NCBI GenBank assembly: GCA_903929195.1
Contig: CAIYTT010000042.1
Coordinates: 1 to 64,000, forward strand
Direction of reading: 5' to 3'
Source: an uncultured Bacteroidota bacterium
GTDB lineage: Bacteria; Bacteroidota; Bacteroidia; Chitinophagales; Chitinophagaceae
DNA length: 64,000 nucleotides
This document shows, piece after piece, positions 6,353-60,348 of the stretch. The translations under genes were made by a program, and so were the position numbers. Each line of letters starts with the position of its first letter. Within the stretch, counting starts at the first letter, position 1. The notes below the pieces were generated by a model that was not told the origin of the DNA, made no database searches, and worked only from the letters and a program-made list of their open reading frames with translations.

Positions 6353-6503
6353 ACATACTATAACCTTAAATATTAAAAACAAAAAAGTAAATTCCGTTTT
6401 TTTATACCCTTGCTGAAAATTTTGATTTATTAAATATTTTTATAAAAACAGTTGCTCTGCATATTTGCACTAATTTTGCAAAACAATTAAAACTGATAAA
6501 AAG

Positions 6504-6884: not shown

Positions 6885-6901
6885 TTGTTTTTCAAATACT
6901 T

Positions 6902-6938
6902 AAAAAAGAGGATGTATATAAAAACATCCTCTTTTTTA
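6902..6938 (+). terminator. Rho-independent terminator
   Basis: An A-rich 14-bp stem (AAAAAAGAGGATGT with ACATCCTCTTTTTT) around an 8-base loop, ending in a T run. It closes the 126-residue gene upstream. Confidence 0.85.
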
Positions 6939-7032
6939 TTGCCTAAATTACAACAATATAAAATATAAATTACTTTAATAATTTATATTTTCAAAACATT
7001 TTTCATAATATTGCAAAAATTCAAAAAATTAT

Positions 7033-8493
7033 ATGAAAAATTATTTACTACTATTGGTAGCATTAGCAACATTCAGCTTTGCAAATGCACAAAATGCAGA
7101 CAGGCAATGGAGCATTGGTATTGAAGGCGGTGGGCAACAATATCAAGGCGACTACGGCAACGGATTTTATAGACCGGAACATGGTCTGTATGGCTTCGGT
7201 GGGTTTTCTGTTTATAAATATCTCTCGGCACATTTAGATTTAGGTGTACAGTTTTCTACCGGAACAATAGGTTATAAAAATAATGATATAACCGCATTCA
7301 GCAACAAAATGTACCAAATAAATGGCAACCTAAGATATAACTTCCTAAAAGAAGGTACAATATTAAGACCGTTTGTATTAGTAGGAATCGGGGATTTTTA
7401 TCTTTCAGATAAAAACTCACTCAATGTACATGATGCCGATATAATGACATTCCCTGATTTAGCAGCAGGGGTAAACATTCGATTAAATGCAGCATTTACT
7501 ATTAAATTACAAGAAACATTATTATTGCCATTCCGCACTTTTAATAATGGGGAAAAACAAGATGCATACCTATTACACACTATTGGTTTAAGTTATAATA
7601 TTGGTCATAAAATTGATGCTGACGGAGATGGTGTTGCAGATTCTAAAGACAAATGCCCTAATACTCCTAAAGGTGTAGCCGTAGATGGTAATGGTTGTCC
7701 ATTAGATACCGATGGCGACGGCATACCTGACTACCAAGACGAATGCCCTACCGAAAAAGGTACTATTGCAGCAAAAGGCTGTCCGGATAGTGATGGTGAC
7801 GGTGTTGCCGACAAAGACGATAAATGTCCGGGTACTCCTGCGGGTGTAGCAGTAGATGCTACCGGATGTCCGCTTGATAGAGATAAAGACGGAATAGCAG
7901 ATTATATGGATGATTGTCCCGACCAAAAAGGCTTACCTGAATTTAAAGGTTGCCCTGATACTGACGGTGATGGTGTACCGGATAAAAATGACAAATGCCC
8001 TAAAACACCGGCAGGTGTTAAGGTTGATGTAAATGGTTGCCCATTGGATAGAGATGGTGACGGTGTGCCTGATTATATGGATGCTTGTCCGGATGTACCT
8101 GGAACAAAAGAAAATAAAGGTTGCCCTGAAGTAAAAAATGAAGTTAAAGAATTATTTAAAAAGGCATTAGAAGGTATAGAATTTGAAACAGGGAAAGATG
8201 TTATTCATAAGAACTCTTATTCAATTCTAAATCAAGTAGTTACGGCATTAAAAGATAACCCTTCTTATAATTTACAGATTAACGGGCATACCGATGATAA
8301 AGGCAAACCGGAAGCCAATAAAATATTATCAGAAAAAAGAGCTGATGCTGTTAAAAAGTATTTTGTAGAAAAAGGTATTGATGAAAAACGATTAAAAACA
8401 GCAGGTTTTGGTGGCGAAAAACCAATTGCTGACAATAAAACAGAGGCAGGTAGAAAGAAAAACAGAAGAGTAGAGTTTATTGTAAATTTCTAA
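7033..8493 (+). CDS. OmpA-family protein with thrombospondin type 3 repeats
   Basis: 486 residues. Signal peptide ending near SFANAQ; N-terminal barrel region about residues 20-190; then six calcium-binding thrombospondin-3 units (DADGDGVAD, DTDGDGIPD, DSDGDGVAD, DRDKDGIAD, DTDGDGVPD, DRDGDGVPD) with paired cysteines, about residues 195-375. The C-terminal OmpA/MotB domain includes INGHTDDKGKPEANKILSEK and ends RKKNRRVEFIVNF, the peptidoglycan-binding part. It probably anchors the outer membrane to the cell wall. It is monocistronic, with a terminator 20 bp after the stop. Confidence 0.93.
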   Translation: MKNYLLLLVALATFSFANAQNADRQWSIGIEGGGQQYQGDYGNGFYRPEHGLYGFGGFSVYKYLSAHLDLGVQFSTGTIGYKNNDITAFSNKMYQINGNLRYNFLKEGTILRPFVLVGIGDFYLSDKNSLNVHDADIMTFPDLAAGVNIRLNAAFTIKLQETLLLPFRTFNNGEKQDAYLLHTIGLSYNIGHKIDADGDGVADSKDKCPNTPKGVAVDGNGCPLDTDGDGIPDYQDECPTEKGTIAAKGCPDSDGDGVADKDDKCPGTPAGVAVDATGCPLDRDKDGIADYMDDCPDQKGLPEFKGCPDTDGDGVPDKNDKCPKTPAGVKVDVNGCPLDRDGDGVPDYMDACPDVPGTKENKGCPEVKNEVKELFKKALEGIEFETGKDVIHKNSYSILNQVVTALKDNPSYNLQINGHTDDKGKPEANKILSEKRADAVKKYFVEKGIDEKRLKTAGFGGEKPIADNKTEAGRKKNRRVEFIVNF

Positions 8494-31340: not shown

Positions 31341-31892
31341 GTGGACAAAATACGGAAGATGAGAAAAAATAAAGAGAAAAACTACATAGTTGAAGAAAAT
31401 AATGAACAGGAAACACAACTAACAGAACCCTATTTTGCAAATTATTTACCTATACAATCTATAGCAGCAAAAACGATAGGTATTATGGGTTTAAATAAAG
31501 AAAAAGAATTTAGAACTATACAAAATGAGAGTGATTTAATAGGGGTAATACGCTCCGGAATACCTAAAAATGCAATGACTAACATGATGAATATCGCAAA
31601 TTTATCGTTGGTAGAAATGGCGAATATCATACATACCACAGATAGAACATTAAGAAGGTACACTGATAATGAAAAATTATCTTTAGACCAATCTGAAAGA
31701 ATTGTAGAATTAGCAAAGTTATATGCACGCGGCGAGGAGGTATTTGGCAATTTAAATAACTTTAGGGAGTGGATGGATTGTAAATTAATGGTGTTAGGCA
31801 ATAAAAAACCCAAAGAATATTTAGATACCTGTATAGGCATAAACATGCTTATTGAAGAATTAGGTAAAATTGAAAACGGAATTTTTGCTTAA
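31341..31892 (+). CDS. ParS/Xre/MbcA-type antitoxin (DUF2384)
   Basis: 183 residues from a GTG at 31341; the ATG at 31359 (MRKNKEKN) is an equally good start. The central helix-turn-helix-like part reads LSLVEMANIIHTTDRTLRRY. The C-terminal DUF2384 part is GNLNNFREWMDCKLMVLGNK, then PKEYLDTCIGINMLIEELGK. It binds DNA and masks the RES toxin whose gene overlaps by one base (TAATG). It lies 36 bp behind purF on the same strand. Confidence 0.93.
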   Translation: MDKIRKMRKNKEKNYIVEENNEQETQLTEPYFANYLPIQSIAAKTIGIMGLNKEKEFRTIQNESDLIGVIRSGIPKNAMTNMMNIANLSLVEMANIIHTTDRTLRRYTDNEKLSLDQSERIVELAKLYARGEEVFGNLNNFREWMDCKLMVLGNKKPKEYLDTCIGINMLIEELGKIENGIFA

Positions 31893-32347
31893 TGGTCGTA
31901 TATAGAATAGCAAAAAAAGAGTTTATTGAAGACCTAAGCGGCAAAGGGGCAGCCATGTTTGGTGGTAGATGGAACAGTAAAAATACTTATATTGTTTATA
32001 CTGCCGAAAGTAGGGCATTAGCTTTGCTTGAAAGTTTGGCTCATATAGGAAAAATTCAGGGTAGTATTTTTAGTATAGCCTCTATTTTTATTCCTGATAA
32101 TTTTATTGATATTATTCTAAAAGAAAATTTATCTCCTTATTGGTACAGTAACCCACCACCCGACTATTTAAGAATTATTGGAGATAATTTTATTAAAAAC
32201 AAAAAAAATCTTGCACTAAAAATTCCATCTGTAATTGTACCCGATGAGTATAATTATTTATTAAACCCATCGCATATAGAATTTAATAAAATAAAAATTA
32301 TGAATGTACAAGCTCTTGCATTAGATAAAAGATTACTTAATGAGTAG
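31892..32347 (+). CDS. RES-domain toxin (NAD+-consuming)
   Basis: 151 residues. VYRIAKKEFIEDLSGKGAAM, FGGRWNSKNTYIVYTAES and RALALLESLAHIG give the Arg, Tyr/Glu and Ser positions of the RES fold, an ADP-ribosyltransferase-like domain. Characterised RES toxins such as those of the MbcT/ParT/Res-Xre families destroy NAD+ or modify a target by ADP-ribosylation. The catalytic residues look intact, so the pair is probably functional. It is directly beside the methyltransferase-kinase operon, forming a defence island. Confidence 0.93.
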   Translation: MVVYRIAKKEFIEDLSGKGAAMFGGRWNSKNTYIVYTAESRALALLESLAHIGKIQGSIFSIASIFIPDNFIDIILKENLSPYWYSNPPPDYLRIIGDNFIKNKKNLALKIPSVIVPDEYNYLLNPSHIEFNKIKIMNVQALALDKRLLNE

Positions 32348-32436
32348 GTTTTAATAAATCAAATACATTAAACTGTTGTTGTAAATAAATAATATCTACT
32401 TTTCCTAAACCTACCCTTCTAATTATTATACTTCTA

Positions 32437-32468
32437 GATTCCCTTGCGGAAAATCCGGAAAAACGGAG
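32437..32468 (+). repeat. Imperfect direct repeat, left copy
   Basis: Begins GATTCCCTTGCGGAAAAT and continues CCGGAAAAACGGAG. It matches the segment at 32906-32936 at most positions (shared GATTCCCT, GAAAAT, GGAA, AAC and GA blocks, with one 1-base gap). The copies lie 469 bp apart. Confidence 0.5.
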
Positions 32469-32905
32469 GGTGGGCTTTTTGTTTTGTGTTGTTTTTCGTA
32501 GATTTTATTTGGGTTTTGCTCATTGGTTTAAAAAAGAATTTTGGGCAGTTTTATTTTTATGCTTCGTTGATATTGAGATACTTGTAAAATAAAAATTGCT
32601 CACAAATTGCCCAATTGGATTTTGAACGGGAGTTTTTATATTTGGTATATCGGGTGTAAGGTATTGTATTTATAGATTGGAGTTTGATGTTTAATTGCAC
32701 CTAATTAAGGTGGTTTTGATTTTTTTTTATTGATAGGTAAGGGTTTGAGGGTAAGTGGTTTTTGTGTGATTTTTGTTTGAACTTTAAGGTAATTTCCACC
32801 TGTTTAATACCGTTTAAACTGAGGTATGATTTCCAACAATAGAATTATACATTTAGCTTCAGTTCTTTGAATACTTTCGGAAAGGGTTTTATTTATTCGC
32901 TTCCT

Positions 32906-32936
32906 GATTCCCTGAAGAAAATTAGGAAGAACAGAC
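32906..32936 (+). repeat. Imperfect direct repeat, right copy
   Basis: Begins GATTCCCTGAAGAAAAT and continues TAGGAAGAACAGAC; pairs with the copy at 32437-32468. It ends 10 bases before the stop codon of the receiver-HEPN gene. Confidence 0.5.
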
Positions 32937-32946
32937 CTTGATAAAT

Positions 32947-33903
32947 TTATTCTAAATGAGGTAAAGTAGTTTCTCTAATCGCTTTCAAAATATCAGTATA
33001 TTTCCTTAGGTTTTTTCTTATGTGAATGCAAGTATCTTGATTAAATTTCTCCGGATGTTGTCCATCTTTTTTTGAAATAATTAAATATTCAATTCCATCA
33101 ATAGTATCACTTTTCGCATGGGCTAAATCATTTCGAATATCTAAGACATCCTTTTTGTAGTTAGAATAAAAGTCAATAAACGGTTCTGTGTTCTGTAACT
33201 GTTTTATTTTAATCAATCGGCCTATCGTACGAGCTTTTTTATCGGCATCAAAAACTCTTTCCTTTAATATCTCAGCGTTTTTATGTTCATGTAATTTGTT
33301 AGCTCGATCACAATTTGACACCGATGACTTAATGACTGAATCAATGATATATGTTCTTATTTTCTCTGTATCATCATTGTTATCGGCTAAGAAACAGGAT
33401 AAAATTTCTATTATTGTGTTGTCAAGTTCACTTGTTTCCGCCATTACCAGCCCCCTAATACTATTAATTTCTTGAAGTTTTGATATAGTCAATTCAATTA
33501 GTCGAAAAGTTCTGCTTCTAAATTCCCTCATACCTTCATCTCCCACCAAACTAAAAAATGATACCCTATCACGATATAAATTTTTTGCGATTTCATCAAA
33601 GTTTTTTTGGGCAGAATAAAACAAGACTTCAGTAAAAACCCCACCATCGCGAATCTTTTGGATAAGTACATCGCCCTGCTTTTCCTTTTCTTTTCCCTTT
33701 TCATCAATACTATAATCGGATAGTATTAGATCATATTTGGTTGATTTTAAAGATTCTTCTGCTTTATTACTATCTTCAAATGTATCAATTAGTGGTATAA
33801 ATCCGAGATTTTCTAAAAAAGAAAGAAATTCCGATTTAATTCCCATTTCAATATAGTCCTCTATATTATCATCTATCCAAAGTATTTTATAGCTCAATTT
33901 CAT
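32947..33903 (-). CDS. Receiver-domain protein with C-terminal HEPN-like module
   Basis: 318 residues. Residues about 1-125 form a response-regulator receiver: ILWIDDN gives the acidic pair D11/D12, LILSDYSI gives the phospho-acceptor D63, and FYSAQ gives the switch Ser97. The usual Lys of strand 5 is not seen (FFSLVGDEG). There is no DNA-binding domain. Residues about 150-310 are helical, and DIRNDLAHAK at 255-264 carries R257-x4-H262, the HEPN ribonuclease motif. The start overlaps the upstream ATPase gene by 4 bases (ATGA). I infer a phosphorelay output that may cut RNA; the HEPN call rests on the motif and helical pattern. Confidence 0.85.
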   Translation of the reverse strand: MKLSYKILWIDDNIEDYIEMGIKSEFLSFLENLGFIPLIDTFEDSNKAEESLKSTKYDLILSDYSIDEKGKEKEKQGDVLIQKIRDGGVFTEVLFYSAQKNFDEIAKNLYRDRVSFFSLVGDEGMREFRSRTFRLIELTISKLQEINSIRGLVMAETSELDNTIIEILSCFLADNNDDTEKIRTYIIDSVIKSSVSNCDRANKLHEHKNAEILKERVFDADKKARTIGRLIKIKQLQNTEPFIDFYSNYKKDVLDIRNDLAHAKSDTIDGIEYLIISKKDGQHPEKFNQDTCIHIRKNLRKYTDILKAIRETTLPHLE

Positions 33904-36578
33904 TTTTTAAATTTTAAAATAAATTCAACACCTTGTTTAAGCTTGTTGTTGACTGAAATTTCTCCTCCCATTTTTTCAATTACTTCTTTTGTGTGATATA
34001 GACCTAAGCCTGACCCATTGGTCGTAGTAAATCTCGGGTCAAAAATTCTTTGTAAATACTTATCTTCTATTCCCTTACCATCATCCAAAATATGCAAAAT
34101 AATTTCTGATGTACTAATACTTTCCCAACTAATGTTGACATTTTTTGCATTTGCTTTTAATGAATTATTTAAAATGTTATCCAAAATAATAATTAATTCA
34201 ATTGGTCTAAAAGAACAATCAAAAATAATATTTTGAGGGGTAGTTGCAGTCATTCTTAAATTTTGATTATTCATAATAAAATGACTATATTCCTGATAGA
34301 CATTTAGAACATATTCATTTACAAACTTAATCAAATCTGCATGTATTTTGGTAACAGTAGTGTCGAACTGTGCTTTTGTAACAAATCTTGATAATGTAAT
34401 TATCTTCTTGTTTTCAAAGGAAATTTTGCTGGCTAATTTTAATAATTCGTCTTTAGGTGAATCTTTGTTGATTGAATCAACTAATTGTTCAATATAAGCA
34501 GTAATATGTTGTGCTGAATGCCTGTATATATGATGTTGAATACTCAATAGGTCATCTTTCTCTGTACCTCTGTCTGCTTTAGAAAACAGTGTTTCAGATA
34601 TTTGTTGTTCTAATTCCTGCTTAAGTGCAGGTATTTCGATTTCCTTTAATCTATTTGTTTCTTTTTCTGCCTCGAATCGCCTATTCTTTTCTTCAATAAC
34701 CCTCTGTTCTGCAACTTCTTTTTGAGATTCAAGCAGTTGAATAATTTTTTTTTGTTCTTCTTTTTCTTCTTTTTCCTTCTCTAATTTTACTTTAAGTTCT
34801 TCGATAATTTGAGTCTGTCTTACAATCGTTTCTTTATAATATTGTAATTCCGTAATAGCCTTTGCAGTAGCCTCAGTTGTCGTATATTTAGAAAAATCTG
34901 CAAGCTGTTTTTCTAAATCTTTATTTTGCTCTGCTTTTTTCTGCAAAATTCTATTTAGAACATCAACATCAATTTTTTTGTTTTCAAAATCTGAAATTAA
35001 TTGTTCAAACTCTCGTTCTGAGTTCTTTTTCTCTTCATTTATTTTGTCAAGAATGAGATTTTCGTTAATATAAATCTTTATTACGGTATCTGCTTTTGCC
35101 GAAATAATTGAATGTATTGAAGCATAAATTCTTTTTCTTTTTGTTACATCATCCTCACGAAAAACTAAATCATTTTCGTTAGTCTCGCCAGATATAATCT
35201 TCTTCTCTATGTCGCTAATTTTATCCCTATCGTCTTCAGGAATACTATCCCAAGCAAGGCCATCTACAACATATTTTTCAAGTCGTTTAAATATCTTAAA
35301 AAAGTAGCCATTTTTTTGCTCAGTTAACTTTTTATAACTTTCATTTTTTATAATCCCTTCTCGACTTGATATAACCTTAAAATCGTTTTCCGAATCTAAA
35401 ATTTCAATTCTACCAACTAATTCTCTTTGACCTAAAAATCTAGCATACCCTTGCCCTTTTCTTAATTCTAAATTTAACCAATCATCACCAAATTCACCAT
35501 AGGGGGGAACACGAAAACCATTTAAAAAAACATAAATTGATCCATAATCAATGGGTCGCACACCTGTTTGTTTAGTGAAAAATGCTTTGGTGTATGGATT
35601 TAAGTAATAAAGTATGATTTTTACGTTTTTTATTTCAGGATAAAACTCGTTTTTTTCTTTTATCCAAAAAATTATTTGCCCCTTATCCTTTAATTCTGTA
35701 TATATGACTTTGCCTCCATCAATAATATTACTCTCAATACTTGTTGTTTTGAAATCTAATTTTTCAAAAATAGAATTTTCAACTTTTCCAATAAATTTTT
35801 CTTCATTTTTTTTTCTTTCATTTTCCCCTTCAAAACCCATTACATTTAAGTAAATGCCAAAATCACTTTTTTCAAATGCTTGGTTAGGATTTATTAATTT
35901 CTCTAAATATCTTTTTAAATCTATTAATTTTTTTGTGTCCCAATCAATAATAGTCCCTGTTTCATTTTTTACTGGATAAACCCATTTGCTCCTTAATTTT
36001 ATTACCTCTAAAACAACTCCTTGTTGAAATGGCGCAATTTTATATTCAAATAATTCATTCTCATTTAAAATGTCATACTTTATGGCGATAGATTGTATTT
36101 CTTTATCTTTATCATTTTCAATTTCAAAAGCTTTCCAATCAATGAAAATTTTTATATAGTTTTCGCTATTTTTCTGTTTTGTATAAAGGTTTAAAAACTC
36201 CCCCAATCTATCACAAGAAAATCTTCCAACTCCTTTTGCACCGGCCATCATTCTATTGTGCTGCCTCGTATTATTTTTTTTTTCTGAGTAGGCAATATTT
36301 AGCCATTTATCTTTGATGTCAACAAGACTCATCCCGACACCATCATCTTTAATAATTAATCTTGAAGTAAAATCAGTAAAATTATTATTGTTTGTAAGAT
36401 TGTTATCATCTGAATTTTTAAGATTGACAAATGTGATATCTACTTTTTTAGCGTCAGCATCAAATGAGTTTTTTACTAGTTCTAATATAGCAATATTATC
36501 ATCATTGATAAGATCTTTACCAATGATGCTTTTAAGTTGAACATTTGTTTTGAAGTGTAAATCTATATTAGTATCCAT
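33900..36578 (-). CDS. Dual GHKL ATPase: MORC/Hsp90-like plus histidine-kinase module
   Basis: 892 residues from the ATG at 36578, chosen because it overlaps the methyltransferase stop by one base (TGATG); an upstream ATG at 36611 would lie inside that gene. N-terminal GHKL ATPase: ELVKNSFDAD (33-42, Mg-binding Asn37), KDDGVGM (77-83), GAKGVGRF (113-120). Residues about 510-665 are a long charged coiled coil. A DHp-like helix follows (SIQHHIYRHSAQH, 679-691, candidate phospho-His), then a second GHKL domain with ILDNILNNSLK (798-808), DDGKGI (832-837), IFDPRFTT (845-852) and GSGLGL (855-860). Probably senses DNA or invader state and signals to the receiver protein. Cytoplasmic, no membrane helix. 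Confidence 0.9.
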   Translation of the reverse strand: MDTNIDLHFKTNVQLKSIIGKDLINDDNIAILELVKNSFDADAKKVDITFVNLKNSDDNNLTNNNNFTDFTSRLIIKDDGVGMSLVDIKDKWLNIAYSEKKNNTRQHNRMMAGAKGVGRFSCDRLGEFLNLYTKQKNSENYIKIFIDWKAFEIENDKDKEIQSIAIKYDILNENELFEYKIAPFQQGVVLEVIKLRSKWVYPVKNETGTIIDWDTKKLIDLKRYLEKLINPNQAFEKSDFGIYLNVMGFEGENERKKNEEKFIGKVENSIFEKLDFKTTSIESNIIDGGKVIYTELKDKGQIIFWIKEKNEFYPEIKNVKIILYYLNPYTKAFFTKQTGVRPIDYGSIYVFLNGFRVPPYGEFGDDWLNLELRKGQGYARFLGQRELVGRIEILDSENDFKVISSREGIIKNESYKKLTEQKNGYFFKIFKRLEKYVVDGLAWDSIPEDDRDKISDIEKKIISGETNENDLVFREDDVTKRKRIYASIHSIISAKADTVIKIYINENLILDKINEEKKNSEREFEQLISDFENKKIDVDVLNRILQKKAEQNKDLEKQLADFSKYTTTEATAKAITELQYYKETIVRQTQIIEELKVKLEKEKEEKEEQKKIIQLLESQKEVAEQRVIEEKNRRFEAEKETNRLKEIEIPALKQELEQQISETLFSKADRGTEKDDLLSIQHHIYRHSAQHITAYIEQLVDSINKDSPKDELLKLASKISFENKKIITLSRFVTKAQFDTTVTKIHADLIKFVNEYVLNVYQEYSHFIMNNQNLRMTATTPQNIIFDCSFRPIELIIILDNILNNSLKANAKNVNISWESISTSEIILHILDDGKGIEDKYLQRIFDPRFTTTNGSGLGLYHTKEVIEKMGGEISVNNKLKQGVEFILKFKK

Positions 36579-37798
36579 CAATTTACCATTTCTTTTAAAA
36601 CTATACCACATTGTTCCCCAAATAATGGTGGTATGGCATTGCCTATTTGTGAATACCTCGGCACTTCTTTTGTTCTTAATTTCCCTCCTGTAGTATATTT
36701 CCCCTGAAACTCATACCAGTCAGGGAAACTTTGTATCCTTGCATATTCCCGTACTGTTAAAATCCTCGGTTCGCTGTAGTGAATATAATCATCGGGTAGA
36801 GTAGTAATTGTTGGGCTTTTTTGTACCCCGTCCAAAGGAATTACAGTATGTTTTTTTATATTATACCTCTGCCTGAGGTCTTTAGAAACGTCTTTGTTTT
36901 TTCTGCCGCTATCACTAATTATTGCCAGAAATTTTTCTATAATATCCGGTCTGTGTTTCGGGAATCTATGGCTGTCGGCAATTTCTTTGTCCACCCCCTT
37001 TCGCATAAATACCTGATAAGGGCTATTCTGTTTTGAATACGTACCTGCCTGATAGCTTTTTGTATCCGGTGATTCGCGTAACTCGTTTTCTTTCAATAGG
37101 TCGGATATCGCATCCTGCAAATTGCTGTCAATACTTAAATTCTTTTCATTCAGGAAAGAACAAGTATTAGCTTTAATCGTATAGAAGAAATTGGCTACCA
37201 GTTCTTCTGATGCTTTTGGAATATCTTTCCTTACACCCACCAGAATAAACCTCGTTCTTTTCTGCGGGATACCGTATTCTCCAAAATTAATCAATTCTCC
37301 TTTTACATAATAACCAGAATCTTCAAGCGATTTTTGAACAAATAACGAATATTCCTTGCCTTTATCTCTGTTTTTTTTAAATTCCAACGTAAAACCCTTT
37401 ACATTCTCAAAAAAAAGAATTTTGGGCTTTACTATTTCTATAAAATCAATGTAAGATTTAATAAGGTTATTTCTGTGGTCGTTTTCATTGCGTCTGCCAG
37501 CCATTGAAAACCCTTGACAAGGTGGGCCTCCAGCTACAAGATCTACTTTACCTTGTAAATCTTTTAATTGTTCTTTATGTTTTTCAATTACTGCTTCAAT
37601 CTCTAAATGGCCGGGTTCACCTAACCATTTTGGCCAATTAAAATGACTTTTCTTATCAATTAAATTATGTTTTAGTGTTTTAAAAGCATCAGGGCTTTTT
37701 TCTATGGCAAATAACCCTTTCCACCCTGCATTATACAGACCGAGCGACAATCCACCACATCCTGCAAATAAGTCAATATAAGTCGGGTTTTTGTTCAT
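36578..37798 (-). CDS. C5-cytosine DNA methyltransferase
   Basis: 406 residues with all main m5C motifs: I DLFAGCGGLSLG (9-20), IV GGPPCQGFS with catalytic Cys94, VI ENV (131-133), VIII QKRTR (179-183), and X RYSQIGNAIPP (381-391). The target-recognition region spans about 190-340. It transfers a methyl group from SAM to carbon 5 of cytosine in a short DNA target that cannot be read from sequence. It is the first gene of a three-gene operon, and no restriction endonuclease gene adjoins it. Large palindromes lie directly upstream of its start. Confidence 0.95.
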   Translation of the reverse strand: MNKNPTYIDLFAGCGGLSLGLYNAGWKGLFAIEKSPDAFKTLKHNLIDKKSHFNWPKWLGEPGHLEIEAVIEKHKEQLKDLQGKVDLVAGGPPCQGFSMAGRRNENDHRNNLIKSYIDFIEIVKPKILFFENVKGFTLEFKKNRDKGKEYSLFVQKSLEDSGYYVKGELINFGEYGIPQKRTRFILVGVRKDIPKASEELVANFFYTIKANTCSFLNEKNLSIDSNLQDAISDLLKENELRESPDTKSYQAGTYSKQNSPYQVFMRKGVDKEIADSHRFPKHRPDIIEKFLAIISDSGRKNKDVSKDLRQRYNIKKHTVIPLDGVQKSPTITTLPDDYIHYSEPRILTVREYARIQSFPDWYEFQGKYTTGGKLRTKEVPRYSQIGNAIPPLFGEQCGIVLKEMVN

Positions 37799-37820
37799 AT
37801 ACTATAGCAAAAGAATAGCA

Positions 37821-37868
37821 AATATAATATTATTAATTTGTTTTTAAAACAATTAATAATATTATATA
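37821..37868. promoter_or_regulatory. Near-perfect ~48-bp AT palindrome upstream of the methyltransferase
   Basis: The left arm at 37821-37844 (AATATAATATTATTAATTTG, then TTTT) and the right arm at 37846-37868 are reverse complements except for one bulged A and the outermost bases, with T37845 at the centre. It lies 23 bases before the methyltransferase ATG, where a promoter operator would sit. In RNA it would fold into a long hairpin, but the minus-strand leader has no T tail, so an operator is favoured over a terminator. Confidence 0.55.
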
Positions 37869-37884
37869 CTATACATTATAGTAT
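37866..37884. promoter_or_regulatory. ATACTATA inverted repeat upstream of the methyltransferase
   Basis: ATACTATA at 37866-37873 and TATAGTAT at 37877-37884 are exact complements around CAT. The same octamer recurs at 37799-37806 next to the start codon, giving three half-sites around the promoter. This is compatible with control by a DNA-binding protein such as the methyltransferase itself. Confidence 0.45.
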
Positions 37885-38096
37885 TACTCAAGAAAACTAA
37901 AATATTCAATTAAATATTCAATAATTATATAAAATAAATATAAAAATCGAAACTGTGGTCTAATTTTCACCAATTTATTCATGAATAATAGCTGAGCCAC
38001 GCCTTTGAGAAGTATCATCCCTATTAGAAAAAGGGCAGCATGCATGTCAAAAATATAATCCTCTAAAAAGCGGAATGACGGGCTTTTTTTTAGCAT
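37884..38096 (-). CDS. Doubtful small membrane-protein frame
   Basis: 70 codons, highly hydrophobic, with two possible membrane helices (HAALFLIGMILLKGVAQLLF and FLYLFYIIIEYLIEYF). I recognise no family. It is upstream of and on the same strand as the methyltransferase operon, so a small membrane accessory or toxin is possible, but length and composition are also what AT-rich spacer gives by chance. Confidence 0.2.
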   Translation of the reverse strand: MLKKSPSFRFLEDYIFDMHAALFLIGMILLKGVAQLLFMNKLVKIRPQFRFLYLFYIIIEYLIEYFSFLE

Positions 38097-38147
38097 TCAC
38101 TAAAAAACCACCAATTTTTTAGACCAACAAAATGCATAGAATGTGAT

Positions 38148-40529: not shown

Positions 40530-40685
40530 AATTTACCATTTAGATAATTAATAACAAACGTAAGACATTATACATAACTTATTGTTTGTTTTTATAGAAA
40601 ATAGTTGTAAAATCGTGATAAAAAATAATTATTAGGCAAAAGAAGGCTTGAAATGAATTATTTTTGGCAATTATTAAGAATTTTC

Positions 40686-42071
40686 ATGCGATTAATCTCT
40701 CTGTTTTTATTTCTTATTGTATCTTTTACTCTACAGGCGCAACAACCTGCGGTAAAGGCAGAGAATTTGCCATCACGGTCTCAATTAGAAGAAAATAGAA
40801 AAGAGATATTAAAGGCTATTGCCGAAACACAAAAAGAACTGGATGCAATAAAACAAGATAAAAATGCAAGTTTAAGCCAATTAAGTGCATTACAACAAAA
40901 ACTGGCTAATAGACAGCGACTTATAACCAATATAAACCAAGAAATAAGTAATATAGATAATTCCATACAAATTTCATCTATTGAAGTTGGCAACCTTAAA
41001 GGTTTATTAGAACAATATAGAATTAGATATGCACAATCTATACGTTATGCCTACGAAAGTAGAAGTAGTTATGATATGATGGCTTTCCTTTTCTCGTCTT
41101 ACGATTTTAATGATGCTGTAAGAAGAATGAAATACCTCCAAAAATTCAGAGATTTCAGAAAACAACAAGTAGAATTAATAAGGCAAACACAAACCAAGCT
41201 ACAAGATAAAATTGGTGCTTTAAATGTTGAGAAAACTCAAAAAGATGAGTTATTAAATTCCCAAATACAACAGAAACAAGTATTGGTAAAAGAAACAGAT
41301 GAAACAAACCAGGTGGTTACCAAGCTGAAAGGTAAAGAGGGCGAGTTGATGAAAGAAATAGAAAAGAAAAGAATTGTAGCCAATAGAATTAATGAAGCTA
41401 TTAAATTGGTTATAGAACGAGAAATGCAACTTGCCCGCGAAAAAGCAGAGGCAGAGGAGAAGAAAAGACTGGCAGCCGCTGCTAAGGCAAACCCTAATGT
41501 AAAAGAACCTGTAAAAACACCGGGTAAAAATCCGGCTGAGGTAGTAAATCCGACAAAAACACCGGTAACTAAAACACCAAAGCCTGCAAAAACGGAAACA
41601 GAACAACCTTTGTTGCTTACGCCATCAGATTTAGCATTGTCTAATAATTTTGAAGGGAATAAAGGAAAACTGTATTGGCCGGTTGAAAAAGGATTTATAT
41701 CAGACCATTTTGGTACACACCCACACCCATTGGCAGAAAAAGTAATGATTGACAACCCCGGTATCGATATACGTACAGCCGACAATGCAACCGTAAGAGC
41801 CGTATTTGAAGGTACTGTAAGCAGTGTATTTTCTACCGTGGGCAGTAATCAAGTAGTTATTGTGCAACATGGAAATTATTTTACGGTTTATAATGGATTA
41901 GCTACTGTAAACGTAAAAAAAGACCAGCATGTATCTACCAAAGAAGTAATAGGTATAGTTGCCGCAAATGATGAAGGTGTGCCTACCATTAATTTCCAGA
42001 TATGGAAGGCAGGAACTAAAAAGTCTCAAATAAAATTAAATCCCGAGCAGTGGGTAAGCAAAATAAAGTGA
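40686..42071 (+). CDS. EnvC-like murein hydrolase activator, copy 1
   Basis: 461 residues from the ATG at 40686, which starts a clear signal peptide (MRLISLFLFLIVSFTLQAQ); an ATG at 40653 would add 11 residues. Long coiled coil over about residues 35-270, then a Pro/Lys/Thr linker, then a LytM/M23 domain (GFISDHFGTHPH onward). The M23 catalytic ligands are gone: NPGIDI replaces HxGxDI, and YNGL and INFQIW replace the later histidines. This matches E. coli EnvC, a non-enzymatic activator of cell-division amidases. Tandem with a second copy 13 bp downstream. Confidence 0.88.
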   Translation: MRLISLFLFLIVSFTLQAQQPAVKAENLPSRSQLEENRKEILKAIAETQKELDAIKQDKNASLSQLSALQQKLANRQRLITNINQEISNIDNSIQISSIEVGNLKGLLEQYRIRYAQSIRYAYESRSSYDMMAFLFSSYDFNDAVRRMKYLQKFRDFRKQQVELIRQTQTKLQDKIGALNVEKTQKDELLNSQIQQKQVLVKETDETNQVVTKLKGKEGELMKEIEKKRIVANRINEAIKLVIEREMQLAREKAEAEEKKRLAAAAKANPNVKEPVKTPGKNPAEVVNPTKTPVTKTPKPAKTETEQPLLLTPSDLALSNNFEGNKGKLYWPVEKGFISDHFGTHPHPLAEKVMIDNPGIDIRTADNATVRAVFEGTVSSVFSTVGSNQVVIVQHGNYFTVYNGLATVNVKKDQHVSTKEVIGIVAANDEGVPTINFQIWKAGTKKSQIKLNPEQWVSKIK

Positions 42072-42084
42072 TTTTATTAAATAT

Positions 42085-43362
42085 ATGATGCGTTTATTAG
42101 CTGTTTTTTTACTGCTCTTATTTTCCTCGTCTGCCATATCGCAAGACAAACCAACCGTGGAAACAAGGGCGAAATTAGAAAATCAACGCAAAGAACTACT
42201 TGCAGACATTGCCGAAACACAAAAAGAGCTTACCGCCTTGCGAGATGATAAAAATGTATCCATCAATCAGTTGCAAGCACTACAACACCAGGTTGCCGAC
42301 AGACATAAATTAATGGTAAACATTAATGATGAAGTAGATGATATAAGCAGCTCTATTGCTGCCTATAAAAGTGAAATAAATTTTTTAATACAAAAAATTG
42401 AAAATTATAAACTTATTTATGCAAGGTCCATCAGGTATTCTTACGAAAGTAGAGGTAATTTAAATTTGTTTGCTTATTTGTTTTCTGCTAACGATTTTAA
42501 TGATGCTATGCGCAGAATGAAATATGTAAAGAAGCTAAGAGAATATCGGCAACAACAAGTAGAAAAAATAAAAGCTACGGAAGAAGAATTAAATAAAACC
42601 TTGCTTACGCTAAAAAGCGAACGTGTGAATAGAGAGAAACTGCTTGTATTAAATAATTCGCAAAGCAAAATACTTTTGCAAGAAACAAAAGAAGCAGAAG
42701 AATTAGTGCAGAAAATAAAAGAAAAAGAAAAACAATTAATTGCCGAACTTGATAAAAAGAAAAAAGCGGAAAAGAAAATAAGTGATGCAATAAATGAGAT
42801 TATTGTAAGCAAAATGAAAACGATAGAAGACAGTGCTGCAAAAAACAGTAATTCTAAATTAGTATTTAACCCGTTAGTACCAACAAAAACGCCCGGCAAT
42901 CAACCTAATCTTTATATGACGCCCAGTGATATGGCAGCTGCAACCAACTTCGAGAAAAGCAAAGGCAAATTAATATATCCAATTTCGCAAGGGGTTATCA
43001 GTTGTCACTTTGGGAATTACCGTGTTGGTAATATAGAATATTATAATAATGGCATAGATATACAAACCTACACAAATGGCACTGTAACAGCCGTATTTGA
43101 CGGCACAGTAAGTAGTGTAGTAAATATGGATGGTAAATTAATTGTATTAATACAACATGGTAATTATTTCACTGTATATAACAATTTATTCAACACCTTA
43201 GTTTCACCGGGAGAAAAAGTTCGTAAAATGCAACCAATAGGTATTGTAGCAAACAATGAAGACGGTAAACCTACTCTTAATTTTCAAATTTGGCGGTCGG
43301 CAGGCAGCAAAATGCAAACAATGCAGTTAAACCCCGAACAATGGGTAGGCAGAGCAGAATAA
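42085..43362 (+). CDS. EnvC-like murein hydrolase activator, copy 2
   Basis: 425 residues; signal peptide MMRLLAVFLLLLFSSSAISQ; coiled coil about residues 25-235; LytM domain with NNGIDIQTYTNG, HGNYFTVYNNLFN and LNFQIWRSAG. Again the metal ligands are missing, so it is not a peptidase. The N-terminal block KLENQRKELLADIAETQKEL matches copy 1 closely (ENRKEILKAIAETQKEL there). The linker is shorter and less Pro-rich. The two genes are a tandem duplication and probably one transcript. Confidence 0.88.
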   Translation: MMRLLAVFLLLLFSSSAISQDKPTVETRAKLENQRKELLADIAETQKELTALRDDKNVSINQLQALQHQVADRHKLMVNINDEVDDISSSIAAYKSEINFLIQKIENYKLIYARSIRYSYESRGNLNLFAYLFSANDFNDAMRRMKYVKKLREYRQQQVEKIKATEEELNKTLLTLKSERVNREKLLVLNNSQSKILLQETKEAEELVQKIKEKEKQLIAELDKKKKAEKKISDAINEIIVSKMKTIEDSAAKNSNSKLVFNPLVPTKTPGNQPNLYMTPSDMAAATNFEKSKGKLIYPISQGVISCHFGNYRVGNIEYYNNGIDIQTYTNGTVTAVFDGTVSSVVNMDGKLIVLIQHGNYFTVYNNLFNTLVSPGEKVRKMQPIGIVANNEDGKPTLNFQIWRSAGSKMQTMQLNPEQWVGRAE

Positions 43363-54162: not shown

Positions 54163-57100
54163 TTAATTTTTAATAAATCTAACAGTTTGCATTTTAATAC
54201 CGTTTTTAATACACGTTACAAAATAACAACCGGTTGCAAACCCATGTAAATCAATCTTGTCAATGTTTTTAATTTGTTTTGTAGAAGACACAACCCTACC
54301 ATATACATCACATATTTCTAATTGTACATTATCCATATTATCTGTATTGATTACAATATTTACATAATCTAAATTTGTAGGATTTGGATATAAAGAAAGA
54401 ACCGGTATATCTGTATTGTGAATTGTATTTGTACCAAGTGGTGTGTTTACATACGTTTTTTGCATACAACCGTTCAGCATGGTAATTACCCAATAATACT
54501 TAGTAATAAAATTAGGTGTAGTATTCGTATAATATTGATTTATTTCACCGGGTATCAATGTTGAATCAAGCGTTAAAGCGTCATCATAACCCCATTGATA
54601 CGAATCTTCAAGTGCTTTTTGGCAAATAAATTGTGGGTATGAATAAAATACTTCCGGAGTATCAGAAACTGCATTAGCGGCAATATATGCCACAAAAGAG
54701 TCTTTTGCAGAGCACATTGCACCACTTTGATGTGCAGTTAGATAGACTACCCCTTTACCTGCGGAATCAAAATTAACTATACAATATTGTTTTGTAGTTC
54801 CTGTTGCCCATACAGTCGCATTATTAGATGTCCACTGATAATCAACACCGGGTATAGGTGTAGTGGTTCCAAAATTTTGATACATCGTATTGGTGCAAAG
54901 TAAATTAGGCGGCATTGTAGTTATTTTTACAGTAAGATACGGGCTAATTACAACTCTTACGGGTTCTGTATTTGTACAACCATTTGCACTAATAGTATTT
55001 AAATACACAACAGAAACAGTATCTGCCGTTGTATTTACCAATATCTCATTTATGGAGTCAATACCGGCTCCGGCACCATTAGATACACCGCTTACAACAG
55101 GGCGAACCCAACTAAAAGTAGCACCGGGAATACTACTGCCAGGTACATAATAAAATAGTGTACTATCACAAATTCCGGGTGGCGTAAGCGAGGTATTCAA
55201 AACCGGTTTAGGGTATATTTTAACTGAATCTGTCGTGAAATTTTTGCAACCATTAATTGATAATGTGTCTATGTAGAAAACAGTTACAGGTACAGATGTT
55301 AGATTAATTAAGTATTCGTTCGGGCTACCGCTACCGGAAGCAGGGGGATTACCAATACTACCATTTGCAGGACGATACCATGTAAAAACGACACCGGCAG
55401 TAGAACTGGAATCAATATAACTAAATAAAGCACTGTCGCAAATAGGTTGCGGTGGAACAATATTAGTTAATAATGGTTTTGGATTTACGGAAACAGAAAT
55501 TGTTTGAACATTTTTACAACCATTTAGTGTTAAGGTATCAACATAAGTAACCGTTATAGGATTGATAGTCGTATTTACCAATCTTTCATTGATATTGCCC
55601 GAACCGGTATCGGCAGGATTCGTTATTCCCGCTACTAAAGCCCTACTCCAAGAATAAGTAGTACCAACTGTTAAACTTGAATCTATATAAGTAAAAAGAG
55701 CACTATCACAAACAGAATGCGGGCTAAGTGTACTGCTTAATACCGGCTTAGGATTTACGATAACAGTATCGGGTTGGTAGCTTGCACAACCTGAAATTGT
55801 AAGAGATGTTAGATAAACAACATTTATTGGATTTGCAGTCGTATTTACGAGTACTTCATTTATGGAATCACCACCACTTGCAGCAGGGTTACTAATACCG
55901 GCAATACTATCTCTATGCCAATATAAAGTAGTACCCGTTGTACCACTCGATAATACATAGGTATAAAGTGTACTGTCGCAAATAGTGCTTGTAGCTACTG
56001 ATGTTGTTAATGTAGGTATTGGGCTTACATTTACCCTTATAGTATCTGTATTTACACAACCATTTGCTTTAATAGTATCAATATAGATTACAGAAACCGC
56101 ATGTAAAGTAGTATCTAGTAATACTTCACTAATATTACCGGTATCACTGTTTGCCGGATTACTGATGCCAACCATGGCAGCTCTACTCCATGCAAAAGAA
56201 ACACCGGGTGCTAAACTACTATCCGTATAATGAAATGTAGCACCGGCACAAATTGAGAACGAATTAACCGTATTACTTAGCGATAATTTTGAGTTCACAA
56301 CTACTGTAATCGTCTCAAAATTGATACAACCGTTTGCGTGTAATGTATCTATATACGTTACTGTTATAGGTAAAAAAGTTGTATTAATAAGATATTCATT
56401 AATATCACCTATACCGCTTGCAGCCGGATTACTTATTCCCGTAACCGTATCTCTGCTCCAAGTAAAAGTTGTTCCTGTAGTAAAACTCGTATCTAAATAA
56501 GAAAACAAAGTGCTATCGCAAATAGAGTGTGGCGTAAGTGTACTACTCAAATTAGGTTTTGGGTTTACTGTAACTGTTAATTGTTGTGTGTTTTGACATC
56601 CATTAGCAGTGAGTGTGTCAACATAAATAACATTGACAGACGAATATGTCGTATTTACTAGATATTCAGAGGGATTGCCCACACCTGATGCAGCAGGATT
56701 AGTGATACCGGCTGTAAATGCACGACTCCAAGAATAGGTTGTACCACTAACCAAACTTGAATCTAAATAACTGAATAAATTGCTATCGCAAATTGTAGCC
56801 GACATAACTACATTACTTAGAATAGGTTTAGGATTTACAGTAACTGTAATAGGTGCAAAATTTTGACAACCATTAATTGTAATTGTATCTATATAGGTAA
56901 CTGCAATCGAATTGAGAGTAGTATTATTTAAGTATTCATTGGGGCTGCCAGTGCCACTTGCAGCGGGATTCAGAATTCCTGCAACTGTAGTTCTACTCCA
57001 AGAATAGGTTACACCTGTAGTTAAGCTGGAATCTAAATAAACAAATAGCGTACTATCGCATACGGTTGTTGACGTAATTATATTATTAATAAAAGGCTTA

Positions 57101-60100
57101 GGATTAACAGTAACCTGAACTGCTTGGAAATTACTGCAACCATTTGCATACAAGGTATCAATATAGGTAACAACAATCGGGTTAGTTGTCGTATTTTCTA
57201 AATATTCATTCGGATTTCCAATACCACTTGCAGCCGGATTAGTGATTCCTGTTAGTATATTTCTACTCCAAGCAAATGTAGTACCTGTGGTTAAGCTGGA
57301 ATCTAAGTAACTAAATAAAGTACTATCGCAAATAGGAGTAGGTGCAAGTGTGTTACTAAGTGTAGGTTTCGGATTTACAACAACACTAACTGTTGCAATA
57401 TTACTACACCCATTTGCAGTTAAAGTATCAACATAAACAACTGTTATAGGAGCAACAGTACTATTTACAAGATATTCCAATGGATTGCCAGTACCGGATG
57501 CAGCAGCATTTGTGATACCTGTTTGCAAAGCACGGCTCCAACTAAATACTGTACCAACTGTTAAGCTTGTATCTAAATAGCTAAACAAAGTACTATCGCA
57601 AATAGCAGCAGGTGCAATTGTGTTACTTAGGGTAGGTAATGGGTTTATTGATATAGTAAACGTACGAGATATACCCGGACAACTATGTGCAGTTGGTTGC
57701 ACCGTAATATTGGCTGTTAAAATAGTATATCCGCTATTCGTAGAAGTAAAACTTAAATTACCACTGCCACTTGCCAACAAATCAATACTTGTATTGTCAT
57801 TTGTCCAATTGTAAACACTTGATAAATCACTTCCGGTAAAATTGACAGTGTCTATTGTTGTAGCACAAAATGAATGAGAAGCAATAAAATCAATTGTTGG
57901 TATTGGGTTCACACTTACAGTTAACAAGGCAGTGCTACTACAACCATTTGTTGTTCCGGTTACCGTATAAGTAATTGTACTTGTAGGGTTCGCTGTTTCA
58001 CTTGCATCGGTAGAAGTTGATAACCCTGTTGTAGGAGACCAGGAATAGGTTGTACCCCCACTTGCACTTAGGGTTGTAGAATTACCACTACAAATAGTAA
58101 CATCGCCACTTGATGTAATAATTGGTAGCGGATTTACACTTACTGTTAGCATTGCAGTATTGCTACAACCACTTGTAGTACCTGTAACCGTATAGGTTGT
58201 TGTACTTGTTGGATTCGCAGTTACACTTGCATCGGTAGAAGTTGATAACCCTGTTGTAGGAGACCATGAATACGTTGTGCCTCCACTGGCATTTAGAGTT
58301 GTTGAAGTACCACTGCAAATCGTAACATCTCCACTTGTTGTAATAATAGGAATCGGATTTACACTTACGGTTAGCGTGGCTGTACTACTACAACCACTTG
58401 TTGTCCCTGTAACTGTATAAGTAATAATACTTGTTGGGTTTGCTGTTACACTGCCGCTAGTACTACTCGATAAATCCGTTGTTGGTGACCATGAGTAGGT
58501 TGTTCCTCCACTTGCACTTATTGTAGTTGAATTACCTGTGCAAATAGCAACATCTCCACTTGTTGTAATGGTTGGTAATGGATTTACACTTACAGTTAAC
58601 GTTGCTGTATTATCACACCCGCTTGTTGTTCCGGTTACTGTATAAGTTACCGTACTTGTAGGGTTTGCTGTTACACTTGCATCGGTAGAAGTTGATAATC
58701 CGGTTGTAGGGGACCACGAATACGTTGTACCCCCGCTGGCACTTAGTGTTGTTGAAGTACCCGAACATATCGTAACATCTCCACTGGATGTAATAATGGG
58801 TAGTGGGTTCACACTTACAGTTAGTGTGGCAGTATTATCACAACCACTTGTTGTTCCGATTACCGTATAAGTAACAGTACTTGTTGGGTTTGCTGATACA
58901 CTGCCGCCAGTTGAACTTGATAAATCCGTTGTGGGAGACCATGAATACGTTGTTCCTCCGCTGGCACTTAGGGTTGTTGAAGTACCGGAACATATTGTAA
59001 CGTCTACACTTGTTGTAATGGTTGGTATCGGGTTCACACTTACGGTTAACATGGCAGTGCTGCTACAACCACCGGTAGTTCCGGTAACGGTATAAGTAAC
59101 AGTACTTGTTGGGTTTGCTGTTATACTTGCATCGGTAGAAGTTGATAATCCGGTTGAAGGAGACCATGAGTAGGATGTACCTCCACTTGCAATTAGGGTT
59201 GTAGAATTACCTGAGCAAATAGCAACATCTCCGCTAGTGGTAATTGTAGGAGAAGGATTCACACTTACTGTTAACGTTGCAGTATTATCACACCCGCTTG
59301 TTGTTCCGGTTACCGTATAAGTTACCGTACTAGTAGGGTTTGCTGTTACACTGCCACTTGTTGTACTTGATAAATCCGTTGTGGGAGACCATGAATACGT
59401 CGTTCCACCACTAGCACTTAGGGTTGTTGAAGTACCCGAACATATCGTAACATCCCCACTGGTTGTAATTGTAGGAATCGGGTTTACACTTACAGTTAGT
59501 GTAGCAGTATTATCACACCCGCTTGTAGTTCCTGTAACTGTATAAGTAACAGTACTTGTTGGGTTTGCTGTTACACTGCCGCCAGTTGAGCTTGATAAAT
59601 CAGTTGTGGGAGACCATGAGTAGGTTGTTCCTCCACTTGCACTTAGGGTTATTGAAGTACCCGAACATATCGTAACGTCGCCACTTGTTGTAATAGTGGG
59701 TAGTGGGTTAACACTTACCGTTAGTGTGGCAGTATTATCACACCCGCTTGTTGTACCGGTAACCGTATAAGTAATCGTACTTGTAGGGTTTGCCGTTACA
59801 CTTGCATCCGTAGAAGTAGATAATCCTGTTGTAGGAGACCATGAATAGGTTGTTCCTCCACTTGCACTTATGGTTGTTGAATTACCTGTACAAATAGCAA
59901 CATCACCGCTTGTTGTAATTGTAGGAGAAGGGTTTACACTGACTGTTACAATAATTGTATTTGTATTTGTACCATCACTAATTTGTATTGTAAAATTATC
60001 TGTACCTACATAACCGATTGTAGGGGTATAAATAAGACCTGAAGGCGTATTAACACCTACAACTTCAGGTGCAATAAAATCAAAGCCTGATAAGGAACCA

Positions 60101-60348
60101 TTTGTAGGATTTGCAGCTATTGACCATGTGTCGGATGGTCCACTGGCTACATCGGTTACGCTTAATAAAGAACTAATATCAAACGAAGTAGAACTTGTAC
60201 ACATAATAAAATTTGCACTAGTACCTGAAACAAATGTAGGACCTTGTGCAAGTACTCTATTTCCAAAAAGAATTAACATTAATATAATCGAAAAAATGCC
60301 AATACTTTTTACAAAACGTAGCCATTGTATCAGAAAAAATTTAATCAT
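54163..60348 (-). CDS. Giant repetitive T9SS-secreted surface protein
   Basis: 2061 residues. Signal peptide with a long hydrophobic core (about 14-34, ending VLAQ); N-terminal cadherin/VCBS-like domain (35-138). Array 1 is nine 75-residue units (139-813), each with a CSG or CTG Cys, TYSWSPTT and TLTVSVNP. One PKD-like unit follows (814-901). Array 2 is ten 90-residue PKD/Ig-like units (902-1801, ICDSTLFSYLD and NGC). A divergent module (1802-1889) and a C-terminal T9SS type A sorting domain (about 1980-2061: LSLYPNPT, DVYGRVV and VRFIKN) end it. Expected to be exported across both membranes and anchored on the cell surface. Probable adhesin or gliding-type filament. Confidence 0.92.
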   Translation of the reverse strand: MIKFFLIQWLRFVKSIGIFSIILMLILFGNRVLAQGPTFVSGTSANFIMCTSSTSFDISSLLSVTDVASGPSDTWSIAANPTNGSLSGFDFIAPEVVGVNTPSGLIYTPTIGYVGTDNFTIQISDGTNTNTIIVTVSVNPSPTITTSGDVAICTGNSTTISASGGTTYSWSPTTGLSTSTDASVTANPTSTITYTVTGTTSGCDNTATLTVSVNPLPTITTSGDVTICSGTSITLSASGGTTYSWSPTTDLSSSTGGSVTANPTSTVTYTVTGTTSGCDNTATLTVSVNPIPTITTSGDVTICSGTSTTLSASGGTTYSWSPTTDLSSTTSGSVTANPTSTVTYTVTGTTSGCDNTATLTVSVNPSPTITTSGDVAICSGNSTTLIASGGTSYSWSPSTGLSTSTDASITANPTSTVTYTVTGTTGGCSSTAMLTVSVNPIPTITTSVDVTICSGTSTTLSASGGTTYSWSPTTDLSSSTGGSVSANPTSTVTYTVIGTTSGCDNTATLTVSVNPLPIITSSGDVTICSGTSTTLSASGGTTYSWSPTTGLSTSTDASVTANPTSTVTYTVTGTTSGCDNTATLTVSVNPLPTITTSGDVAICTGNSTTISASGGTTYSWSPTTDLSSSTSGSVTANPTSIITYTVTGTTSGCSSTATLTVSVNPIPIITTSGDVTICSGTSTTLNASGGTTYSWSPTTGLSTSTDASVTANPTSTTTYTVTGTTSGCSNTAMLTVSVNPLPIITSSGDVTICSGNSTTLSASGGTTYSWSPTTGLSTSTDASETANPTSTITYTVTGTTNGCSSTALLTVSVNPIPTIDFIASHSFCATTIDTVNFTGSDLSSVYNWTNDNTSIDLLASGSGNLSFTSTNSGYTILTANITVQPTAHSCPGISRTFTISINPLPTLSNTIAPAAICDSTLFSYLDTSLTVGTVFSWSRALQTGITNAAASGTGNPLEYLVNSTVAPITVVYVDTLTANGCSNIATVSVVVNPKPTLSNTLAPTPICDSTLFSYLDSSLTTGTTFAWSRNILTGITNPAASGIGNPNEYLENTTTNPIVVTYIDTLYANGCSNFQAVQVTVNPKPFINNIITSTTVCDSTLFVYLDSSLTTGVTYSWSRTTVAGILNPAASGTGSPNEYLNNTTLNSIAVTYIDTITINGCQNFAPITVTVNPKPILSNVVMSATICDSNLFSYLDSSLVSGTTYSWSRAFTAGITNPAASGVGNPSEYLVNTTYSSVNVIYVDTLTANGCQNTQQLTVTVNPKPNLSSTLTPHSICDSTLFSYLDTSFTTGTTFTWSRDTVTGISNPAASGIGDINEYLINTTFLPITVTYIDTLHANGCINFETITVVVNSKLSLSNTVNSFSICAGATFHYTDSSLAPGVSFAWSRAAMVGISNPANSDTGNISEVLLDTTLHAVSVIYIDTIKANGCVNTDTIRVNVSPIPTLTTSVATSTICDSTLYTYVLSSGTTGTTLYWHRDSIAGISNPAASGGDSINEVLVNTTANPINVVYLTSLTISGCASYQPDTVIVNPKPVLSSTLSPHSVCDSALFTYIDSSLTVGTTYSWSRALVAGITNPADTGSGNINERLVNTTINPITVTYVDTLTLNGCKNVQTISVSVNPKPLLTNIVPPQPICDSALFSYIDSSSTAGVVFTWYRPANGSIGNPPASGSGSPNEYLINLTSVPVTVFYIDTLSINGCKNFTTDSVKIYPKPVLNTSLTPPGICDSTLFYYVPGSSIPGATFSWVRPVVSGVSNGAGAGIDSINEILVNTTADTVSVVYLNTISANGCTNTEPVRVVISPYLTVKITTMPPNLLCTNTMYQNFGTTTPIPGVDYQWTSNNATVWATGTTKQYCIVNFDSAGKGVVYLTAHQSGAMCSAKDSFVAYIAANAVSDTPEVFYSYPQFICQKALEDSYQWGYDDALTLDSTLIPGEINQYYTNTTPNFITKYYWVITMLNGCMQKTYVNTPLGTNTIHNTDIPVLSLYPNPTNLDYVNIVINTDNMDNVQLEICDVYGRVVSSTKQIKNIDKIDLHGFATGCYFVTCIKNGIKMQTVRFIKN
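54946..57645 (-). repeat. Ten tandem 270-bp coding repeats (array 2)
   Basis: Ten units of 90 codons, each starting NPKP (or NPLP/SPIP) and containing ICDSTLF, WSR, NPAASG, NEYL and NGC. Units are diverged, with only these anchors constant, so the array is older than array 1. Confidence 0.9.
57910..59934 (-). repeat. Nine tandem 225-bp coding repeats (array 1)
   Basis: Nine units of exactly 75 codons with no length change. Units differ at only a few residues (for example TGLSTSTDAS versus TDLSSSTGGS, and GCDN versus GCSS), so they were copied or homogenised recently. DNA identity between units is high enough to allow slippage or recombination. Confidence 0.95.

Follow-up and report, generated by a model that had tools for sequence, protein, structure and literature searches.

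The question raised by this locus is what an operon that encodes a cytosine methyltransferase, a protein with two ATP-binding domains and a receiver-domain protein does for its host. The operon is located in an uncultured bacterium of the Chitinophagaceae (contig CAIYTT010000042.1), within the stretch of 64,000 nucleotides that was analysed as a whole and is called the window below. A preliminary description of this DNA proposed a candidate new defence system in which methylation marks self DNA and a kinase passes a signal to an RNA-cutting effector. Our analysis arrives at a related answer: the best reading of the locus is modification-guarded abortive infection through a two-component phosphorelay, with a probability of about 0.5. 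The features discussed below are listed in Table 1.

Table 1. Coordinates of the operon, of predicted functional residues, of the variable segment and of caspase-like genes in related loci.
Feature	Position	Strand	Remarks
C5-cytosine DNA methyltransferase, 406 aa	36578-37798	minus	catalytic PCQ (Cys94), ENV, QxRxR motifs
paraMORC-like GHKL ATPase + histidine-kinase core, 892 aa	33900-36578	minus	coiled coil joins halves
Receiver (~residues 1-140) + HEPN-like helical domain (~145-318), 318 aa	32947-33903	minus	AF2 model
H682 codon, predicted phosphoacceptor histidine of H-box	34533-34535	minus	GHKL protein alignment and SrrB match
D63 codon, predicted phosphorylated aspartate of receiver	33715-33717	minus	invariant in 12/12 homologues
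R257-N258-D-L-A-H262, HEPN RNase-type motif	33118-33135	minus	R, N, H in 12/12 homologues
Variable segment carrying the operon	32336-38114	n/a	without counterpart in congener G731
Caspase-like genes (motif-level assignment)	L041 11327-12049; L042 12689-13354; L045 7043-7696; L062 9779-10459		invariant His-Gly, Ser-Cys

The three genes of the operon, their sizes and their coordinates were rechecked on the sequence and agree with the preliminary description, as do the two overlaps: the stop codon of the methyltransferase gene and the start codon of the GHKL gene have one base in common (TGATG, the A of TGA being the first base of the start codon), and the stop codon of the latter shares four bases with the start of the receiver gene (ATGA). 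The length of the GHKL protein is counted from the ATG at 36578, while its open frame extends to 36611. Promoter and terminator matches at the operon did not exceed chance level. The methyltransferase is intact, as had been described (PF00145, E 2.6e-56; PADLOC MTase_II PDLC03234, E 2e-85), and is the sole confident PADLOC-DB match among the three operon proteins.

Both GHKL domains reported for the middle protein were recovered with Pfam, HATPase_c_3 at residues 28-161 (E 3e-23) and HATPase_c at residues 793-891 (E 5e-22). Across 13 aligned homologues the motifs of both ATP sites are invariant or nearly so, namely E33, N37, D78/G80/G82 and G113-G118 in the first site, and N801/N805, D832/G834/G836 and G855/G857/G859 in the second; the region at about 180-440 is conserved as well, and the coiled coil between the two halves, as read from the sequence, is long. 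In a Protein Data Bank search residues 673-891 aligned with both the DHp and the CA domains of SrrB (6paj), with H682, which is nearly invariant (at least 90% of the 13 alignment rows), opposite the histidine of SHELRTP. The C-terminal half, earlier taken for a kinase, thus shows homology to HisKA kinases of solved structure and has the H-box histidine and the N, G1 and G2 motifs of a two-component histidine kinase, and the N-terminal half has the intact ATP motifs and the modification-locus setting of a paraMORC; judged by its sequence, the protein joins a paraMORC-type GHKL module to a true DHp+CA histidine kinase. With its intact N-terminal GHKL domain beside a cytosine methylase it resembles the paraMORC GHKL ATPases (Iyer et al., 2008, PMC2292703), but has a C-terminal histidine kinase instead of a REase, TIR or other domain, and a receiver as its partner. 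The N-terminal GHKL region also aligns with BbrUII/HgiDII (NCBIfam NF050001), with no C-terminal match shown. Assignment to a plain HgiDII-type restriction enzyme was rejected, as the alignment is limited to this region and scores 48 bits against a family cut-off of 550.

The third protein matches Response_reg at E 1e-3 in the window and at E 7e-8 in its nearest homologue. In its AF2 model (pLDDT 82) residues 3-142 adopt a receiver fold comparable to that of PorX (Z 15.6, rmsd 1.9 over 119 residues); together with D63, the codon of which was checked, this gives the protein both the phosphoacceptor aspartate and the fold of a receiver. No conserved lysine is seen at the end of beta 5 in the 12-row receiver alignment, and the receiver may therefore be atypical. 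A PADLOC match to PDC-M60C (E 0.009) covers the receiver part alone.

The C-terminal domain of the same protein is predicted with pLDDT 85 when modelled alone. Foldseek gave no significant match to this model, and a search of the domain sequence against solved structures found nothing. In a structural comparison five HEPN-superfamily structures were among the top 18, including ranks 1-3: 1jog (Z 7.7, rmsd 3.1, 104 residues), 7bxo (Z 7.6, rmsd 3.5, 104 residues) and 7ae6 (Z 6.9, rmsd 4.2, 110 residues), all in the range of Z 6-8 that counts as noise for helical bundles, and, at lower ranks, MtlR (6kcr) and 2q00. We take 1jog, MtlR and 2q00 to be HEPN folds, partly on the basis of a 2013 survey. 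HEPN Pfam models did not match the window domain itself, while three homologues weakly matched three different HEPN families (E 0.007-0.05). Across 12 homologues the domain is 14-53% identical (median 24%), and only K142, R150, G151, R257, N258, H262 and R296 are invariant. The R-x4-H motif noted in the preliminary description is thus borne out, and in the form R257-N258-x3-H262 it fits the HEPN pattern R-x4-6-H with a polar residue after the arginine. This conserved motif, a feature of the aligned sequences, is the strongest support for a HEPN assignment; the HEPN fold, as modelled, is supported but not proven, and the domain is probably an RNA-cutting one.

The gene order that had been put forward as a unit recurs across Bacteroidota. 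With the GHKL protein as the query, 395 Bacteroidota genomes were searched first; inspection of the flanks of the matches showed the methylase, GHKL-kinase and receiver-HEPN genes in L039, L040, L043, L044, L046, L047 and L048, the methylase being convergent in the last two. In an additional locus, L038, the kinase and receiver genes are present and the contig stops before any methylase could appear. A search with the receiver profile alone in a fresh set of 395 Bacteroidia genomes gave three new full-length matches (L086, L087 and L088), all of them in the same methylase/kinase/receiver operon. Overall, the kinase gene adjoins the receiver gene in 12 of 12 loci including the window, and the methylase gene accompanies them in 11 of 11 assessable loci; that kinase and receiver stand together in 11 loci beyond the window (with the methylase in 10 of the 10 assessable) places the arrangement beyond chance. 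The methylases adjoining most relatives are 43-71% identical to the window methyltransferase, those of L043, L086 and L062 being more distant (31-35%). Immediately upstream of the operon in L040 lies a gene for an NB-ARC STAND protein (4911-7622), a defence-type neighbour. Relatives from Gammaproteobacteria, Campylobacter and Deinococcus came from plasmids only. A related kinase occurs on Campylobacter jejuni/coli plasmids (L063, 5992-10445; 43 Campylobacter plasmid records matched); on the conjugative plasmid examined, the genes after it encode a receiver with a C-terminal domain of the published type and, convergently, a cytosine methylase.

The preliminary description considered the proposed chain to be without described precedent, and this does not hold. 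The combination of methylase, paraMORC-kinase and receiver was published in 2021: Bellieny-Rabelo et al. (2021, PMC8011034) reported 644 regions with a C5-methylase, a HATPase_c_3/HEF_HK/HATPase_c protein and a Response_reg_2 protein, and proposed a two-component system tied to restriction-modification (R-M), with no known output domain reported. The window has the architecture of that family, a tandem of C5-methylase, HATPase_c_3...HATPase_c protein and receiver, with the methylase upstream, DHp between the ATPase domains and the receiver adjacent, and some members of both have HNH_2 or Vsr neighbours. However, the window receiver is shorter, 318 aa as against ~530-600 aa, and ends in a HEPN-like domain, and the residue after the histidine is H, Q or S in most relatives found here, not E or D. 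HEF_HK (PF19191) had no match at E<=1 in the window protein or in any of the 13 aligned members, and Response_reg_2 (PF19192) had none in the window receiver or the window genome; PF19192 exceeded its cut-off in 6 of 247 Bacteroidota and in none of the receiver-HEPN genomes found. Membership in the HEF_HK/Response_reg_2 family was rejected, as neither diagnostic Pfam model matches. No description of a receiver-HEPN or receiver/caspase-like output for the methylase/paraMORC-kinase family was found in the literature searched. Since the architecture is that of the 2021 family without its diagnostic domains, and no HEPN output was reported for that family, we regard the locus as a divergent variant, its receiver belonging to another family.

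In Detocs, a defence system described without a DNA methyltransferase or paraMORC module, a signal of invasion or damage is passed by a kinase to an effector. With PADLOC-DB 2.0.0 no Detocs label was obtained (for the methylase, among its best 25 matches), and this release may hold no Detocs models. The CapK/VapKSC GHKL-kinase systems (PMC13373217) likewise relay an invasion or damage signal from kinase to effector but, by their description, have no DNA methyltransferase or paraMORC; the residue that VapK phosphorylates is a STAS serine, and its proposed trigger is ssDNA (PMC13373217). The coupling of a HEPN domain to a paraMORC has a precedent: Anantharaman et al. (2013, PMC3710099) reported R-M loci in which a Ymh-type HEPN domain and a paraMORC form one protein. 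Both there and here a modification locus brings together a paraMORC ATPase and a HEPN RNase-type domain; however, HEPN is fused directly there, whereas here it belongs to a separate protein behind a kinase-receiver pair. Finally, a 2026 machine-learning study (PMC13092281, Figure 6F) gives a predicted system with HATPase and REC, which possibly overlaps with the system of the window.

No recognisable endonuclease is encoded within the window operon or beside most HEPN loci. The earlier statement that an endonuclease is missing therefore stands for the window operon, but not as a general rule: in L044 and L046 the gene immediately after receiver-HEPN encodes an HNH_2 restriction enzyme, and L046 has Vsr as well, so the nuclease-free state is one of two. 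A nearby nuclease as the true partner of the window operon was rejected, as none is found in the operon, the genome (99% complete, searched for the HNH_2 type) contains no HNH_2 domain, and the neighbours are a RES/Xre toxin-antitoxin pair. These relatives bring in the main rival explanation, which follows the published reading (PMC8011034): a two-component regulator that licenses or times an R-M nuclease, the C-terminus of the receiver being an adaptor and not an RNase. It is a real contender where HNH_2 is present, and is also favoured by a 75% identical HNH enzyme after the Response_reg_2-type operon in L101 and by the ATPase itself, as the GHKL protein of L086 has an N-terminal extension (6330-6680) homologous to the N-terminal domain of the L046 HNH_2 enzyme, and that of L043 (8347-8700), by similarity to L086, is probably the same HNH-family domain. 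Such fusions hint that the ATPase may share the DNA-reading domain of the nuclease. Nevertheless, we consider the regulator explanation unlikely for the operon of the window, given the lack of a recognisable nuclease gene here and beside most HEPN operons, a receiver without a DNA-binding output domain, an invariant R-N-x3-H that an adaptor would not need, and the replacement of the output by a caspase-like protein in relatives. Much less probable still is an R-M remnant that has lost its nuclease, with the remaining genes decaying or moonlighting. A nuclease missing here and present in two relatives would agree with it, as would the broken kinase frames in L087 (a receiver-HEPN locus) and L045 (a caspase-like one); but none of the three operon genes of the window is interrupted, their catalytic motifs are complete and their starts overlap, and most HEPN loci have the same nuclease-free form.

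The output differs between related loci. In L041, L042, L045 and L062 (a Stenotrophomonas plasmid) the methylase and kinase genes are followed by a shorter receiver gene and an extra gene, the product of which carries invariant His-Gly and Ser-Cys, a pattern suggestive, at the motif level, of a caspase-like cysteine protease. Pfam and PADLOC gave no convincing match for the two members scanned, and the nearest solved caspase, ancestral caspase-6, was not significant (E 0.85). A tree built from the ATPase region places the three caspase-like loci of Bacteroidota within the clade of receiver-HEPN loci (14 rows, support 100/99); its strongly supported branches force at least two changes of output label. 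Such nesting is what one would expect of effectors, HEPN and protease, that can replace each other. A third type of output, seen in the published family and in most of the other relatives, is a receiver with a conserved domain at its C-terminus. At L122 (3287-4935) a receiver gene next to a paraMORC-kinase gene is followed by a metallo-beta-lactamase gene (PF00753, E 4e-11), possibly a further type of output. PAPS-reductase-like (DndC-like) genes occur near paraMORC-kinase genes in L105 (8125-9249) and L118 (10092-10913), L105 being the one scanned, and suggest a link to non-methyl DNA modification. Within the set, a metallo-beta-lactamase, HNH or PAPS-reductase-like gene is found in single or few cases.

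The operon lies in a segment that is variable among congeners. In the congener G731 the flanks, located on two separate contigs, are 90-91% identical at the nucleotide level to those of the window, this similarity ending at 32335 and resuming at 38115; after the common RES toxin gene, Mrr-like and TIR-like genes occupy the spot of the operon. Searches of four near genomes for relatives of the GHKL or receiver protein found none, while recovering the window copy. Such variability fits a spot of defence-gene turnover, and together with the genes seen in G731 and the NB-ARC gene beside the L040 operon it supports a defence-like setting. The Mrr_cat-like and TIR_2-like genes of G731 (L134, 4387-5369) are possibly a small defence pair. 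The RES/Xre pair (31341-32347), convergent with the operon, is kept in this operon-less congener. Elsewhere in the window there are two tandem paralogous coiled-coil genes of M23-peptidase/EnvC-type appearance, about 43% identical to each other as judged in the comparison with the congener (40653-43362), and one uninterrupted minus-strand frame of 2061 residues (54163-60348).

A further rival is a methylation-guarded selfish module: as long as host DNA is methylated, the kinase would hold the receiver-HEPN toxin in an off state, either phosphorylated or bound, and cells that lose the operon would die, much as in R-M post-segregational killing. Linkage of a methyltransferase to a toxin-like effector, the variable segment, the adjoining RES/Xre pair and the related kinase-receiver-methylase set on Campylobacter conjugative plasmids point in this direction. 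However, single-sequence searches did not find the HEPN version on plasmids or viral contigs, and those of viral contigs and phages gave no full relative; moreover, a selfish module is compatible with defence and does not exclude it. We consider it an improbable account, more so than the restriction regulator.

Modification-guarded abortive infection is favoured by the recurrence of the unit, the conserved kinase and receiver residues, the SrrB-like core and the HEPN-like evidence, as well as by the exchange of effectors, the defence-like placement and the HEPN-paraMORC precedent (PMC3710099). Against it are the HEPN fold, weak by numbers, the missing beta-5 lysine of the receiver, and the HNH_2 gene in the same operon of some relatives, so that receiver-HEPN may assist restriction. 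According to this scheme, the methyltransferase, by analogy with its family, would mark host DNA, and the N-terminal paraMORC GHKL module, which could act as an ATP-driven DNA clamp in the manner of MutL and MORC, would engage DNA without the mark. This contact would release the C-terminal histidine kinase of the same protein, which would autophosphorylate at H682; the phosphate would pass to D63 of the receiver, as the conserved residues suggest, and once the receiver is phosphorylated the HEPN domain fused to it would become free to cut RNA, so that the infected cell would be arrested.

More tentatively, the family as a whole may represent a modular immunity in which DNA modification status feeds a phosphorelay with an interchangeable effector (HEPN RNase, caspase-like protease, perhaps metallo-beta-lactamase) and kinase-triggered abortive infection replaces restriction. 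Two-component signalling is classically a route to altered gene expression. If the scheme is true, epigenetic self-recognition would here be joined directly to programmed cell arrest, the kinase/receiver family described in 2021 would acquire a function, a possible caspase-like effector would be added to methylation-linked defence, and the question of what prokaryotic MORC-like ATPases sense would become tractable.
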